The notes beneath the pieces were generated by a model. It saw only the letters and a list, made by a program, of their open reading frames with translations, did no database searches and was not told the origin of the DNA. From Aminivibrio pyruvatiphilus (lineage in GTDB: Bacteria > Synergistota > Synergistia > Synergistales > Aminobacteriaceae), in assembly GCF_004366815.1 (NCBI RefSeq), contig NZ_SORI01000002.1:186001-250000 (forward strand): a stretch of DNA of 64,000 nucleotides. Reading direction: 5' to 3'. The translations under genes were made by a program, and so were the position numbers. Positions 1,585-10,070 of this stretch are shown piece by piece; the first letter of the stretch is position 1; each line of letters starts with the position of its first letter.

Positions 1585-2205
1585 TTAAAACTCCGTCTCC
1601 ATGCGCAGAATCGCCCAGGTGTCCTTTCCTCCGAATGTGTGGGGCTTCGCCAGGGCCGTGAATTTTCCGAGGATGTCGTCCTTGTCCTCCGTATTGTAGA
1701 TCTCACCCCGCATGACGATACGGCCTTCGGAATCCCGGGACGCCTCGTCCACCCGGGCATAGTACACGGCCTCGCCGTCCGCCCCTTCGAAGTGGTAGTA
1801 CGTGCCGTCATAGTAAAAGGGCAGGTCGGACTCGGTGACGCTGGCGAGCTTTTTGTAGTCCACGCCGAAATACTTCTTTATGCTTTCCGTGACGTACTTG
1901 CCTTCGATGACGAGGGATCCCCACTCGCAGTTCTTTTTCTTGCACCGGGCGATGCGGCTCTTGTAGTTGTTGATATAGTTGTGCCAGATGCCGAAGCGGA
2001 TCATGTCGGCGGGGTCGTCTTCGTTTGTGAGGACTTCCGCGTCGAAGTCCATGAAACCGAGTTCGGTGAAGTTCGACAGGAAGGTGCTCATCCTTTTCAG
2101 CTCGGCGGCGGAGAATCCCTTCTTGGATCCTGATGCGGCAAAAGTTTCGGTGCATGAGAAAACGAACAGCGAGAGAACAAGGCACAGCACGGTCATTTTT
2201 TTCAT
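1585..2205 (-). CDS. Secreted or lipoprotein of unknown function
   Basis: The product has 206 residues from the ATG at 2205, preceded by GAGG eight bases upstream. An in-frame GTG nine bases earlier is less well placed. The first 20 residues form a signal peptide ending LFVFSC-T, which could be a lipobox, so the mature protein may be a lipoprotein. The rest is soluble, charged and rich in Tyr, Lys and Asp, with two Cys close together (RCKKKNC). I do not recognise the family. It probably forms a unit with the next upstream small genes on the same strand, all of which look exported or membrane-bound. Confidence 0.7.
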   Translation of the reverse strand: MKKMTVLCLVLSLFVFSCTETFAASGSKKGFSAAELKRMSTFLSNFTELGFMDFDAEVLTNEDDPADMIRFGIWHNYINNYKSRIARCKKKNCEWGSLVIEGKYVTESIKKYFGVDYKKLASVTESDLPFYYDGTYYHFEGADGEAVYYARVDEASRDSEGRIVMRGEIYNTEDKDDILGKFTALAKPHTFGGKDTWAILRMETEF

Positions 2206-2293
2206 TCCGGTCACCTCTTTCCTGAGAATGTGGTCTTTTTCTTTTTCAGGGCGGAATACCTCCCTTTCTGTGTATCTCCCGGCCGTACACCGT

Positions 2294-3837: not shown

Positions 3838-6342
3838 CTAAAAGTCTTTTTTGGCCAGTTCGCTTCTCGAGTGGACATCCAGCTTGCTGTAGATGAGCTT
3901 GAGGGCTGACTTGACCGTGTTTTCGGAGATGAAGAGCCGGGAGCCGATCTCGGCGGCGGTGAGCCGCTCCCTGGCAAGAAGGGCAATCTCCCGTTCCCGG
4001 GGGGTCAGGAGGGAATATTTCGGTTCAATCCGGGCCAGTACTGAAGAAATTCCCGCGCCTCCCCGCCTGCACAGGGCGATGACGGGTTCGAGCGCGTTCC
4101 CGCCGAAGCCGTTCTTCGCTGCCTGAAGCAGGGGCACCATGGAGGTGCCGAATTCGGCAAAGGGAAGATACATCCTGTCCGGCATCGCGGCGCGGAGCGC
4201 CTGTCCCAGGTACTCCATGGCGGCGGCATCCCGGCCCTCCTCCTTTTTCGCGGCGGCCAGATGGAGCAGCATCCAGAGCCGGGGCAGTTCGTACTTCATT
4301 CCGGCAGCCATCTCCATGGCAGGTTCCGCCATGCCGTAGAGTTCCGGGTACCGCTTTTCAAGGAAGAGAAGCCTCGCGAAGAACATGAGTCCATAGGGAT
4401 GCCCCTGGACATACAGGACCTTCCGGATGCTTTCCGCCTCCCGGAGCCAGCCCGGAATTTCTTCCGTCTTTCCAAGGGAGAGGTCGAGAACGGCAAGGCA
4501 GAGTTCCACCATCCTGGCGATGGCCCTTTCCGGAGACTCTTTCCGATACCTGGCGATGTTCTCCCGGACGGCCCCGAAAGCCGCGCCATCCCCCCGGAGA
4601 ATCGCAAGGCGGGCCAGGACCAGTTCCGCACAGAGACACAGGCTGATCTGCCCGGCTTCCCGGGCCAGATACAGGGCCTTGTGGCTCAGAGTTTCCGCTT
4701 CCGCCTCCTCTCCGCGGCAGAGGTGGGCTTCGGCCCGCATCATGACCTCCGCCCCCGTCCCGTGGCCGGCGGCAAGCTTCACATACCAGGGCATGCATTC
4801 GTCCATGAGGTCCAGAGCATGGTCGAGACCGCCGGTCCTGTTCCAGTAAAGGCTCAGCACCGAGGGGATGCCGAAGGTCCAGGGAGTCAGGCCGAAAATA
4901 ACGGACCGGGGGTAGGCGCCGCCTTCTGCCGATGAAAGGTGGGCAAAGGCTTCCCTGTGAAAGGCACTCATTTTCGCGATATCGTTGAATTCGGTGAAGG
5001 AAAGAAGCAGGGCCGTTTCGCCCTTCAGCCTCGACAGGTCTTCCTGCGGAAGGTCCCCCGGACCGGCGATGATGCCCCGCAGCAGGCTCACCATGCGGGA
5101 GAACCGGTCCCGCATGCCGCTTTTCAGGAAATGGAAGGCAAAGAGAAGAAGGGCGAAGGGGTATCTCCGGAGGGTGTCTTCGGAACACTTCGAAACGAGC
5201 TCTTCAAGGAAGCCGATGATCTCTTTCTCCTTCTGTTCGTTGAGGTATTTGCCCGTGAAGGGCAGGGAGAGGATGGCATCGCAGTCCCGGAGCTTCATGT
5301 AGAATTTTGCCGCCTCGAAGTAGTCCGAGGCATCCCTGCAGGCGTCCCCGGCCCTTCGGATCAGGACGTCCGCCAGGGCGGGAGGCTGGTTCTCGAACTG
5401 TTTGCGGAGGTATTCCTTCAGGATGCTGTGAATCGAATAGGCGCTCTTGTCGGCGATGTAGGAGATGAAAAAGCTGCTTCTCAGCATCCTGGTCACGTCC
5501 CCGGGCAGGACGGGCCAGCCGCCGACGATGGCTCCCTGCCGGGGAGTGAAGGAGTCGAGCAGTGAGGCTCCCATAAGGAAGGTACGGGTCTCTCCGGGCA
5601 TCCTGTTCCAGACGGCAGTTTCGATAAGGCTTTCCATGTCGGGCACCCGGGCGAAAGATCCCGTCTCCCTGAAATTCGACGCCTGGAGCAGGATGGCGGA
5701 GACCCATCCCTCGGAAACGCTCTGGATGTAGTCCAGGTCGCGTTCCGAGACGTCCGCTCCCGACAGGCGGCAGAGACGGGCAGTGGATTCCCGGTCGAAG
5801 AAGAAATCCTTCGTGTCCAGCCGGTGGATGTGCCCGCTGTGGCGGATGTCCCCCCCGCAGGAAGGAAGGGGCTGGGTGATGAACACCATGTGGAGGTTTT
5901 CGTTGGCATGGGCCGAGAAGGCCCCTATGAGGCCGCAGGGGATATCCGTCTCGAAGAGCTGGTAGTTATCGATGACGAGGAAGGTTTCCCCGTCGCATCG
6001 GCATTGGCCCAGAACAGCGGCGATATCCGGCAGGTTTTCCACCGAGGGAGGGAAGAGTCTCTTGAGTTTCTGGGCTGCCTCCATGTCCACGGTCCCCAGG
6101 AGCCGGCAGAAGCCTTCCCAGGCCTTCGAGGGCCGTTCGCCGAAACAGGTGTACCAGTTCCCGCTGCTGTTCGTCCGAACCGTTTCCCGAAGGAATTCCC
6201 TGACGGCGGTGGTCTTCCCGAAGCCGGAAGGCGCCTCCACCACCGTGAGGGGATAGCCGGACATTCTTTCGAGAAGCGCTCTGAGGTGCCCGGGAAAGAC
6301 ACAGGTTCCGCCCCGGAGCCGGGGGTTCGCCTCTTTCTGCAT
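3838..6342 (-). CDS. Large ATP-binding LuxR-family regulator (MalT/LAL type)
   Basis: The product has 834 residues from the ATG at 6342, which has GGAGGG seven bases upstream. A GTG at 6402 in the same frame has no good site. It begins with a STAND-type NTPase module: Walker A APSGFGKTT at residues 37-45 and Walker B-like FLVIDNYQLF. A long helical, TPR-like middle follows. The last 65 residues are a LuxR helix-turn-helix (LTPREREIALLA, then IGSRLFISENTVKSALKLIYSKLDV). The length matches MalT-like activators of 830-900 residues. These bind an inducer plus ATP and then multimerise on target promoters. The inducer is not evident. The MEMO-like/DUF3160 pair just upstream on the same strand is a possible target. 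Confidence 0.88.
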   Translation of the reverse strand: MQKEANPRLRGGTCVFPGHLRALLERMSGYPLTVVEAPSGFGKTTAVREFLRETVRTNSSGNWYTCFGERPSKAWEGFCRLLGTVDMEAAQKLKRLFPPSVENLPDIAAVLGQCRCDGETFLVIDNYQLFETDIPCGLIGAFSAHANENLHMVFITQPLPSCGGDIRHSGHIHRLDTKDFFFDRESTARLCRLSGADVSERDLDYIQSVSEGWVSAILLQASNFRETGSFARVPDMESLIETAVWNRMPGETRTFLMGASLLDSFTPRQGAIVGGWPVLPGDVTRMLRSSFFISYIADKSAYSIHSILKEYLRKQFENQPPALADVLIRRAGDACRDASDYFEAAKFYMKLRDCDAILSLPFTGKYLNEQKEKEIIGFLEELVSKCSEDTLRRYPFALLLFAFHFLKSGMRDRFSRMVSLLRGIIAGPGDLPQEDLSRLKGETALLLSFTEFNDIAKMSAFHREAFAHLSSAEGGAYPRSVIFGLTPWTFGIPSVLSLYWNRTGGLDHALDLMDECMPWYVKLAAGHGTGAEVMMRAEAHLCRGEEAEAETLSHKALYLAREAGQISLCLCAELVLARLAILRGDGAAFGAVRENIARYRKESPERAIARMVELCLAVLDLSLGKTEEIPGWLREAESIRKVLYVQGHPYGLMFFARLLFLEKRYPELYGMAEPAMEMAAGMKYELPRLWMLLHLAAAKKEEGRDAAAMEYLGQALRAAMPDRMYLPFAEFGTSMVPLLQAAKNGFGGNALEPVIALCRRGGAGISSVLARIEPKYSLLTPREREIALLARERLTAAEIGSRLFISENTVKSALKLIYSKLDVHSRSELAKKDF

Positions 6343-6439
6343 GGATGGCCCTCCATTCTCTCCTTCTGCAGCCGCTTTTCGCACAGCATCATAATAATGC
6401 ACAATGGCCGGAGAAATTTCCGGATGTATGACTAAATAT

Positions 6440-7342
6440 TTAGTCTTTATATTCCTTCACGATGATGTCTGCTTCAGAAGAGGGGGGCTTCCCCGAAGTC
6501 CCCTCGCCGGACGTCCCGTACAGGATGGCGGCATAGCTCGTTCCCGACTCCACCCTGCGGCCCAGGACGGACGACGTATCGGCGTGCTCGATGACGGTTC
6601 CTTTTTCGATCCCGACCTCGCGGAAGAGCATCAGCACCAGGGCTGCGGCACGGCGGGCATCCACGTCGATGGTCTTCGTTCCGGCAGGCCGGATATTGGC
6701 CAGGACGTCCAGGGTCCTGCGGTCTTCGGCGGCCATGGCCTCCGGTGTCTTGTAATGGGACAGGTCCATGCTCAGGATGATGACATCCCCGTCACGGAGC
6801 AGATCCAGAATAGCGTTTTTCAGGATGATAAGAGCCAGGTCGGGCGTCCGTGCGCCGATCACCATGGGAACCACCGATGCGTTCGGAAAGTGCCGGGCAA
6901 CGAAGGGGATGTGGACCGTTATGCCGTGCTCCCGCCGGAACAGGGCTCCGTCAGCTCCCGCCACGGACAGGGACGAAAGTATTTCGCAGGCTTCCCGGTC
7001 TGCCATGAGAAGCCGTTCCGGGGTCGGCCAGTCGTCGGGGCACAGGGCCGCGAAGGTCCGGGCCCGGCGGAAGTGGTCGGGGGAAAGCAGCCATACCCGC
7101 CGGACCTCCGGCGACCCAAGGTGCTCGTAAAACCGCTGTATCATGCCGAGGGCAATATCATGGTGCGGAACGATGCCGCCGGTGATGCGCACCGGCGTCA
7201 CCCGTTCCCCGCCCCTTGTGCCTGCAGGGAAGGCGGAGCCGGTTTCAGCCCCGCCTTCCGCCCTTTGCAGAATTCCGCTCCCTGCGGCAAGGATGCAGAG
7301 AAGCATCACTGCCGTAAAGAGCTTATTTCCGAAGCTCTTCAT
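6440..7342 (-). CDS. Exported MEMO-like protein (AmmeMemoRadiSam system B family)
   Basis: The product has 300 residues. The core contains GGIVPHHDI, LLSPDHF, REHGITVHIPF and SMDLSHYKTPEA, which match the MEMO1/class III extradiol dioxygenase-like fold with its conserved His residues. The usual partners (AMMECR1 and a radical SAM protein) are not adjacent. Unlike cytoplasmic MEMO proteins it starts with MKSFGNKLFTAVMLLCILAAGSG, a clear signal sequence, so it should act outside the cytoplasm. Its ATG overlaps the end of the DUF3160 gene by 20 bases, which indicates translational coupling. Its substrate is unknown. Confidence 0.8.
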   Translation of the reverse strand: MKSFGNKLFTAVMLLCILAAGSGILQRAEGGAETGSAFPAGTRGGERVTPVRITGGIVPHHDIALGMIQRFYEHLGSPEVRRVWLLSPDHFRRARTFAALCPDDWPTPERLLMADREACEILSSLSVAGADGALFRREHGITVHIPFVARHFPNASVVPMVIGARTPDLALIILKNAILDLLRDGDVIILSMDLSHYKTPEAMAAEDRRTLDVLANIRPAGTKTIDVDARRAAALVLMLFREVGIEKGTVIEHADTSSVLGRRVESGTSYAAILYGTSGEGTSGKPPSSEADIIVKEYKD

Positions 7343-10070
7343 ACCACGCAGGATGGTGCTTTTTCAGCTCTCCTGACCGGGCCTGATCGTAGACCAGGGC
7401 TTTCCATTCTTCGTCTGTCATGCGGCCTCCCTCCAGGGAGCGGACGAACTCGTAGTAGGAGAAGATGAACCCCCTGGTGACCCGGGGGCCGCCCGAGGCG
7501 TCGTTGACGAAGACATGGATTCTCTGGGGCCTGCCGGAGGCGATGTGGAGCACCCGGCCTTCGAAATAGTCCGTGGCGATATCGGTGACCAGGGCCATCT
7601 TGAGCTGCTCCCTGTCATCCACCATTTCTCCGGGCAGCAGGAGCTGGGCGTTGAAAGCCCGGGCCAGATACTTGATATTCCCGTAGTCTTCCGCCGTCAG
7701 GGGCTTGCCTCCGGTCTCCTTCGCCGCGATGTCCCGGGCTATGGACAGCAGTTCCGCCAGGGTTTCCAGCCTGGAGGCGTAGGGAATGCCCTCTTTCTCG
7801 AATTCCTCGTCATCCGGCTCCATGCCGAAGTCGCCGATGAAGGACCGCAGCCGGGAGACCGCCGACAGGAGGGCGTCAAAGGTACGGGGATCGGGCTCCA
7901 CGTACCCCTTCGGCTGCGGGGGGGCGAAGGGTCCCGCTTCGGTGTCGCCGCCGTCGCCCATCTCGGCGCCGGACTGCTCGGCGTAGAGCACGGTGTCGTG
8001 CTTCAGCTCGGCCCAGGATGCGGAACAGGTGGAGAGCTTCTTCCACTGCCACGCGGGAGATTTGTAAAAGAACTGGTCCGAGCCGGAATCCCGGAATCCC
8101 TCCTGGAAGGCCTTTATCCACAGGGAGTAGACCGATTCCTCTCCGGCGAGGTGCCCGTTCATCCATGTTTTAAGCTTCTTCAGCGCCTCGGCGTAGCCCT
8201 TTACGCGGCTGTTTTTCGCCGCCAGGCCGTCGGCCGCACGGGACCCCAGGGCGGCCATGACATCCGTTCCCTCCGGGAGATTGCGGGGGTTTGCGTCGGT
8301 TCCCACCCGGGGGGAGGTGAGCATGTTCATCACGTAGGCGTCCGGGGTGAAGCGCTTGCCGGACATGCGGAAGACGGGAAGGCGGGATGCGAAGTCCTTC
8401 GTGCCGTCGTCTCCGCCCGGGGTGCTCTGGATCAGGGGGCCGGGAACCGTCTTTTTGATCTCGTCGGCCAGGGCAGAGAGAACCCTGCCGTCGGCCAGCC
8501 GGACGGGAGCTCCCGCAAGGGCTCCCATGCGCTCTTTGGCCAGCTTCCGGTATATGCGGGTTCCTCCCGTGTTCGACGCGCCCACGAGGAAATCGATGGG
8601 AGCCTCGAAGGCGTTCCATTGTTCCTCCTGCTCTCCGAGGACGAGAGACACCAGGGCCGCCGCGGCGACGTTCCCTGGCTTCGGCGTGCCGTCGTCGGCG
8701 AAGAGGACAAGCTCGGCGGAGCCGAGCCAGCTCATGGCCCGGAAATACCGTTCCAGCTCCGGCCTCAGAGTGTAATGTCCCCGGGGCCTGAAGGATGTGT
8801 AGTCGATTTTCGCCCCCGTGACGGCGGAATCCGTCACATCCGCCGCGGCGAGTATCCGGGCCACTTCTTCGGACGCGTTTTTCGACAGCCTTGTCCGTGT
8901 TCCCGGCGTCTCTTCCAGAAGGGCAAGGGGAATGGAGAACATGTCCCGGGCCGTTTCCCAGGTCTCCCCCGCTCCCGCAGAGGAGCAGGCGCCCTCGACG
9001 CCTGCCAGGGCGGCCAGGGCCGTCTTCATGCTTTCCCCGAGGGCCGGGGCCAGGAAGGTACGCTCGAATTTCTGCAGCATCCGGCTGAACACCAGGTGGA
9101 AGGCGTGGAGGAAAAGGTCGGTGGTGATGAAATCGGCCTGGTAGTCGGTGGTGAAACTGTAGTAATCCGCCAGGTCGTCCACCTGGAGGGCATTTTCGTC
9201 CATGGGCCACGGATCGTCGATATAAAAGCCTTTCCTGAGAAGGGAGGCGGCCATGTCCTTCGTTACGGGAAGGAATTCCGTCATTTTTTCCGGGGCGTCC
9301 ATACCCCGGAAACCGTCCCCGTAGAAGGAGGACATGGCAGAGTACCGCATCTTCGACGGCAGAAGCCCCTTGTCAATCCTGGAATTGTCGGGCGCATAGC
9401 CTTCCAGGGAGCCGAAATCGGCCTTTTTCCCCCAGGCGTACCGGGAGCCCACGCCTCCGCTGCCGAACCTCGTGTCGGTGGAAAATTCGAGAAGCAGCCA
9501 GCTTTCCTTTCCTTCAGAAAATTCGCCCACCGCCGTCACCGTTTCCCCCCGGGCAAGGGAGAATTCCCCGGCGGAGATGCTGCGGGCCGTTGCGCCTTTC
9601 CCGGGCTGAAGCCGCAATTCCGCGCCGTCCTTCTTCACCGTGAAGGAACGGGCTTCGAAGCTTGTGTGCTCCGGAACTTTTTCGATGCCCTTCTTCTGGA
9701 TATAGCAGAGCACCTCCCCGTCCTCCGGCGAAAGAAGGGCGTACCATCCGCCGGCGAACTGCCTGAGCTTGCTGTCCGTTATGGTACGCACCCTCAGGTG
9801 ATTGCCGTAGACCACGACCCCGTAGAAATCCGGGAGCTCCCAGAGATCCGTCACCTGGGGAACTTTCGCGGCGGGTTTTCCAAACATGGGCACCACATCC
9901 GCGGTGACGACGTACAGGCCGTCACCGCCCGCAGGGCCGGAAGCGCTCTTTGCCTGCGCCGCCGGGGCAAAGACGCCAAGTGCCAGAATAAGGACAGCAC
10001 AGAGAGGAACAACCTTCAGCAACAATGCTCCCCACCCTGTTCCCATGGTCTTTGTTCCGTTCATCCCCAT
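7323..10070 (-). CDS. DUF3160 domain secreted protein
   Basis: The product has 915 residues with a signal peptide of about 40 residues ending APAAQAKS. The C-terminal 550 residues look like DUF3160: the DDLADYYSFTTDYQADFITTDL region, a long helical section, then CSASWAELKHDTVLYAEQS and a terminal HVFVNDASGGPRVTRGFIFSYYEF. The N-terminal 200 residues resemble SH3-like or beta-rich repeats. Start choice: AAGGAGG lies just before the ATG at 10070, and a second ATG six bases on is also possible. The gene overlaps the following MEMO-like gene. DUF3160 proteins are uncharacterised, and export suggests an envelope role. Confidence 0.8.
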   Translation of the reverse strand: MGMNGTKTMGTGWGALLLKVVPLCAVLILALGVFAPAAQAKSASGPAGGDGLYVVTADVVPMFGKPAAKVPQVTDLWELPDFYGVVVYGNHLRVRTITDSKLRQFAGGWYALLSPEDGEVLCYIQKKGIEKVPEHTSFEARSFTVKKDGAELRLQPGKGATARSISAGEFSLARGETVTAVGEFSEGKESWLLLEFSTDTRFGSGGVGSRYAWGKKADFGSLEGYAPDNSRIDKGLLPSKMRYSAMSSFYGDGFRGMDAPEKMTEFLPVTKDMAASLLRKGFYIDDPWPMDENALQVDDLADYYSFTTDYQADFITTDLFLHAFHLVFSRMLQKFERTFLAPALGESMKTALAALAGVEGACSSAGAGETWETARDMFSIPLALLEETPGTRTRLSKNASEEVARILAAADVTDSAVTGAKIDYTSFRPRGHYTLRPELERYFRAMSWLGSAELVLFADDGTPKPGNVAAAALVSLVLGEQEEQWNAFEAPIDFLVGASNTGGTRIYRKLAKERMGALAGAPVRLADGRVLSALADEIKKTVPGPLIQSTPGGDDGTKDFASRLPVFRMSGKRFTPDAYVMNMLTSPRVGTDANPRNLPEGTDVMAALGSRAADGLAAKNSRVKGYAEALKKLKTWMNGHLAGEESVYSLWIKAFQEGFRDSGSDQFFYKSPAWQWKKLSTCSASWAELKHDTVLYAEQSGAEMGDGGDTEAGPFAPPQPKGYVEPDPRTFDALLSAVSRLRSFIGDFGMEPDDEEFEKEGIPYASRLETLAELLSIARDIAAKETGGKPLTAEDYGNIKYLARAFNAQLLLPGEMVDDREQLKMALVTDIATDYFEGRVLHIASGRPQRIHVFVNDASGGPRVTRGFIFSYYEFVRSLEGGRMTDEEWKALVYDQARSGELKKHHPAWYEELRK

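Follow-up and report, generated by a model that had tools for sequence, protein, structure and literature searches.

A putatively exported MEMO-family variant with an altered predicted metal site and a DUF3160 partner in Synergistota

In human MEMO1, iron or copper is held by H49, H81, and C244, and extradiol dioxygenases carry His-His-Glu at the positions of these ligands (PMC11081632). PGA_cap proteins share fold and active-site motifs with MslH, a metal-dependent peptide epimerase (PMC10406935), and this family link rests on the calcineurin-like fold together with the motifs. In the open-licence literature, one paper mentions DUF3160, listing it as a secreted enzyme without an assigned function, and its pairing with a MEMO protein is not described there.

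In this work, we analyze such a pair in a stretch of 64,000 nucleotides, called here the window, which is part of contig C2 of a Synergistota assembly (3.35 Mb, 98.9% complete). The pair is real and conserved, and within that literature it appears to be undescribed. Judged by its residues and gene neighborhood, its MEMO protein is a family variant whose metal site has changed and whose partner is new.

Layout of the locus and predicted export

Both genes are located on the minus strand, with DUF3160 first and MEMO 3′ of it. The features of the locus are as follows.

6440-7342, minus strand: MEMO-like gene, 300 aa, putatively exported; ORF coordinates exact
7323-10070, minus strand: DUF3160 gene, 915 aa, putatively secreted; ORF coordinates exact
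7323-7342, minus strand: 20-bp overlap of the DUF3160 3′ end and the MEMO 5′ end, read from the sequence
7265-7342, minus strand: predicted signal-like N-terminus of MEMO, about residues 1-26, a hydrophobic segment kept in relatives
9360-9930 (limits approximate), minus strand: beta-rich N-terminal region of DUF3160, about residues 47-237, from weak Foldseek matches
7720-9180, minus strand: helical core of DUF3160 with an invariant acid/His cluster, from a 51-sequence alignment
3838-6402, minus strand: MalT-like LuxR-family regulator (GerE match, 4.3e-11)
1585-2214, minus strand: small secreted protein, 209 aa, with homologues linked to DUF3160 in loci L089 and L108

The 20-base overlap was already part of the original prediction and was confirmed; it suggests translational coupling of the two genes. 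A strong ribosome-binding site, GGAGGAGG, stands immediately 5′ of the DUF3160 start, and no clear counterpart precedes the MEMO start, which fits coupled translation. A scan for promoters and terminators around the pair gave matches at no more than chance level. The upstream neighbor is a gene for a YitT-family membrane protein, while 3′ of MEMO, on the same strand, the LuxR regulator follows after a 37-bp gap, together with two small secreted proteins. Genes for such MalT-like LuxR proteins adjoin the pair in four loci (the window, L079, L037, and L092), and the protein is possibly a regulator dedicated to the cluster. The family of the 1585-2214 protein is encoded a few genes 3′ of the pair in the window and in L079, directly 5′ of DUF3160 in L089 (3459-4094), and as an N-terminal fusion to DUF3160 in L108 (5171-8419). 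Among the relatives compared, the closest is a MAG of the Synergistaceae, with 80% identity in MEMO.

A signal sequence on MEMO and secretion of DUF3160 had been proposed at the outset, and signal-like N-termini are indeed predicted for both proteins: MKSFGNKLFTAVMLLCILAAGSGIL... in MEMO and MGMNG...LLLKVVPLCAVLILALGVFAPAAQA/KSA in DUF3160. A crude in-house test detected a hydrophobic signal-like N-terminus in most homologous frames (MEMO, 40 of 45; DUF3160, 54 of 58), and the frames failing it are mostly truncated or broken. The MEMO segment is retained in both close relatives. An internal GTG start at MEMO residue 47 would drop the signal, but L079, one of these relatives, has no start residue there. 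The accompanying statement that MEMO proteins are normally cytoplasmic proved too strong: signal-like N-termini occur in 6 of 29 conventional MEMOs of the second phylum surveyed below, so export alone is not unique to the DUF3160-paired clade. These six (L156, L164, L166, L160, L162, and L165), three of them fused to AMMECR1, fall outside the DUF3160 branch.

Pairing of MEMO and DUF3160 in two phyla

The survey covered two phyla, Synergistota (188 genomes) and a second phylum (395 genomes sampled), the latter being that of one of two MAGs labelled Deltaproteobacteria (L043 and L045), both of which carry the pair. The pairs of these MAGs are close to the Synergistota type, which may reflect horizontal transfer or mis-binned contigs. 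Pfam matches to MEMO were obtained in 40 Synergistota genomes; six weak ones were removed, and three missed exported copies (G157, partial; G159; G168) were added, giving 37 genomes with an exported-type MEMO. The weak matches (G001, G004, G105, G126, G128, and G129) are LigB-AMMECR1 fusions.

DUF3160 was found in 44 of the 188 Synergistota genomes, including 36 of the 37 with an exported-type MEMO. The two genes are direct neighbors in the same order on one strand in 29 genomes; the order is reversed in G153, one gene intervenes in G114, the strands are opposite in G041, and the genes lie on separate contigs in G124, G150, G156, and G160. In the sole genome of the 37 that lacks DUF3160, G093, the MEMO gene sits on a contig of 3.4 kb. 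Co-occurrence gave a Fisher p of 1e-29, a value uncorrected for phylogeny and so inflated by vertical descent. Distances among the MEMO proteins track those among their DUF3160 partners: over 32 pairs, the two matrices gave r = 0.91, and none of 2000 permutations exceeded 0.30. Shared vertical descent can account for much of this correlation.

In the second phylum, the exported-MEMO profile recognized proteins in 8 of 395 genomes at 166-356 bits, while conventional MEMOs reached at most 107 bits. DUF3160 is present in 24 of the 395 and in seven of these eight, adjacent to MEMO in six. The eight genomes usually also carry one or more conventional MEMOs, which marks the exported MEMO as a separate branch. 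Except in G188, it forms the N-terminal half of a protein of 547-612 residues, often lipoprotein-like. PGA_cap/CapA (PF09587) was found in the C-terminal half of all four fusions scanned with Pfam, which the remaining fusions closely resemble in sequence. Active-site motifs are intact in the MEMO-CapA fusions (L178-L184), whose CapA halves retain NLE, NNHxxD, HWGxE or HFGxE, and GxHxH. A PGA_cap gene is also adjacent to DUF3160 in L110, L194, and L195; one PGA_cap neighbor matches the MslH model, with a score far below the model cut-off. This link is absent from the window, and the two PGA_cap genes of the genome are located elsewhere.

Conserved genes flanking the pairs are few, with LuxR, TMEM43, and PGA_cap recurring in subsets of loci. 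A TMEM43 (PF07787) gene lies beside DUF3160 in five loci (L084, L105, and, divergently, L101-L103), and tandem DUF3160 copies, some broken or fragmentary, are found in L105 and L099. DUF3160 also occurs without an exported-type MEMO in eight Synergistota genomes and in many of the second phylum, which implies that it can act alone.

With most pairs coming from one phylum and few other neighbors conserved, the adjacency could be synteny inherited within Synergistota only, with no functional link. However, the pair is kept while its surroundings change, it survives at 25-50% sequence identity, and it recurs in the second phylum, where a CapA half is mostly fused to MEMO; mere synteny is thus hardly credible. 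The original prediction of an extracytoplasmic, functionally linked pair is supported by this conserved pairing in both phyla, whose absence would have refuted it, the location being predicted. Since their genes have remained together in numerous anaerobic bacteria from both phyla, MEMO and DUF3160 very probably function jointly in the cell envelope.

Family, fold, and predicted metal site of MEMO

The MEMO protein matches PF01875 (E = 1.3e-22, 80.7 bits, cut-off 27), starting at model position 39, and TIGR04336 (E = 2e-22, 79.7 bits, above the curated cut-off of 26); in the Pfam search PF01875 alone matched, with no match to PF02900 (LigB). Its AlphaFold model (pLDDT 85.6, above 90 for 223 residues) has MEMO1 (3bcz) as the best PDB fold match in Foldseek (E = 1e-12, TM 0.66), followed by LigB-type extradiol dioxygenases. 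Exported and conventional MEMOs split with full support in the tree, where the exported proteins are a clade of their own.

In the profile alignment, H60 and H90 of the window protein, both invariant, fall on H49 and H81 of MEMO1. In the C244 column, all 27 conventional bacterial MEMOs examined have Cys, and all 44 members of the exported clade have Asp (D228 in the window). The residue after the PH motif is Ala in conventional MEMOs and His in 43 of 43 exported ones (window H61), and the alignment columns of the N-terminal AGxFYP segment are empty in the exported proteins. We infer that H60, H90, and D228 are the metal residues, with H61, H139, D193, and H196 nearby, and that they would make up a 2-His-1-carboxylate site like that of LigB dioxygenases. 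This switch of a metal ligand from Cys to Asp had been overlooked in the original prediction, as had the CapA/PGA_cap link. Within a family conserved from bacteria to humans, a Cys-to-Asp branch with a fixed genomic partner represents a natural metal-site variant.

The putative His-His-Asp site would restore the classic extradiol triad, and LigB-type dioxygenases are the fold matches after MEMO1; on these grounds, MEMO could be an extracytoplasmic LigB-like dioxygenase or another oxygen-using redox enzyme, perhaps in oxygen detoxification or aromatic oxidation. Yet the Synergistetes described from culture are strictly anaerobic (PMC5738826), which argues against dioxygenation, PF02900 does not match the protein, and MEMO1 showed no dioxygenase activity on the substrates tried (PMC11081632). 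We regard an oxygen-using enzyme as quite unlikely.

MEMO could also be an export branch of AmmeMemoRadiSam, that is, a B protein serving AMMECR1 and radical SAM proteins encoded elsewhere. It scores above the TIGR04336 cut-off, and two loci, both of the second phylum (L182, 6098-7147; L186, 4665-5714), are the only ones where DUF3160 has an AmmeMemoSam radical SAM gene beside it in divergent orientation, which hints at a link between both systems. The claim that MEMO has no such partner holds at the locus, since no AMMECR1 or radical SAM gene was found near the pair in the window, but not in the genome, where a LigB-AMMECR1 fusion gene overlaps an AmmeMemoSam_rS radical SAM gene on contig C24. 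The window MEMO is thus not the missing B protein of this set, in which AMMECR1 comes with a LigB domain already fused to it. Moreover, AMMECR1 is present in 120 of 188 Synergistota genomes, 90 of which have no exported MEMO, and it is absent from 7 of the 37 that have one; no AMMECR1 gene lies near the exported MEMO at any of 45 loci, and neither the canonical Cys nor the N-terminal motif has been kept. Taken together, such an export branch appears highly improbable.

DUF3160 and a proposed envelope module

DUF3160 matches PF11369 with residues 298-897 (E = 1.4e-129, 433.9 bits, model positions 22-624 of 632). In the 51-sequence alignment, D318, H322, E336, H691, and E725 are invariant and H325, H432, and D692 nearly so; these conserved acid/His residues lend the protein the look of an enzyme. 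Its AlphaFold model (pLDDT 86.7) consists of a beta-rich N-terminus and a helical core. The N-terminus weakly matches autolysin repeats (4epc; Foldseek E = 4.4e-3, prob 1.00) and, again weakly, SH3/amidase proteins in a viral structure library, and the modelled SH3b-like repeats may serve in wall docking. Beyond this region, no solved relative was found by sequence and fold, with no PDB match at E ≤ 0.001. The giant virus Fadolivirus encodes an annotated DUF3160 protein (BFVD A0A7D3QV25). MEMO is the first partner found reproducibly with DUF3160, and it places DUF3160 in the context of the envelope.

The DUF3160 cluster of invariant His, Asp, and Glu residues could take a metal, and for MEMO1, a binder of both iron and copper, no catalysis is known (PMC11081632, PMC9477392). 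Instead of an enzyme, MEMO might accordingly be a protein that binds Fe, Cu, or Zn or delivers it to DUF3160 or CapA. The invariant second-shell residues H139, D193, S195, H196, and D207, however, look catalytic rather than chaperone-like, and a delivery role seems unlikely to us.

We propose, with belief and doubt in about equal balance, that the pair is a cell-envelope metalloenzyme module, docked to the wall via DUF3160 and acting on extracytoplasmic peptide polymers. Both proteins would be exported from translationally coupled genes, and the SH3b-like repeats of DUF3160, a weak structural match, may dock to the cell wall. The MEMO/LigB fold would use His60, His90, and Asp228 in place of the His-His-Cys of MEMO1, with the invariant His61 in addition; such a 2-His-1-carboxylate site would be independent of a thiol outside the cytoplasm. 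The chemistry in strict anaerobes would be metal-assisted acid/base or hydrolytic, not dioxygenation. Its target may be an extracytoplasmic peptide or peptide-containing polymer, because the recurrent CapA/PGA_cap partner resembles a metal-dependent peptide epimerase and because of the wall-docking hint. The helical DUF3160 core (D318/H322/E336/H691/E725) might form a second catalytic or substrate-presenting half.

A further-reaching proposal, which we put forward only tentatively and consider rather doubtful, is an undescribed system for the modification or maturation of extracytoplasmic peptide polymers that would combine three mutually unrelated, metal-dependent modules, namely a His-His-Asp MEMO, a CapA/MslH-type epimerase, and DUF3160, which would represent a new enzyme fold. 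Exported MEMO and DUF3160 offer a genetically separable system for testing the chemistry of the MEMO fold.

Compared with known systems, the window DUF3160 protein is a full-length, putatively secreted member of its family (PF11369, arCOG03316), to which it adds an N-terminal SH3b-like region and a MEMO partner. CapA/PGA_cap (PF09587), the relative of the lasso-peptide epimerase MslH, is a partner domain with intact motifs in related loci, where its role is putative; the window locus does not contain it. With LigB class III extradiol dioxygenases (PF02900), MEMO shares a related fold and, by alignment, may share a 2-His-1-carboxylate site, but it is putatively exported, comes from anaerobes, has no PF02900 match, and carries Asp for Glu. 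Likeness to AmmeMemoRadiSam B and MEMO1 extends to the fold, the His residues equivalent to H49 and H81, H139/H131, and the SxDxSH motif (D189, H192). The exported clade differs from them in Asp for C244 (44 of 44), in the extra invariant His61, in a predicted signal peptide replacing the AGxFYP motif, and in its partner, which is DUF3160 and not AMMECR1 or radical SAM.
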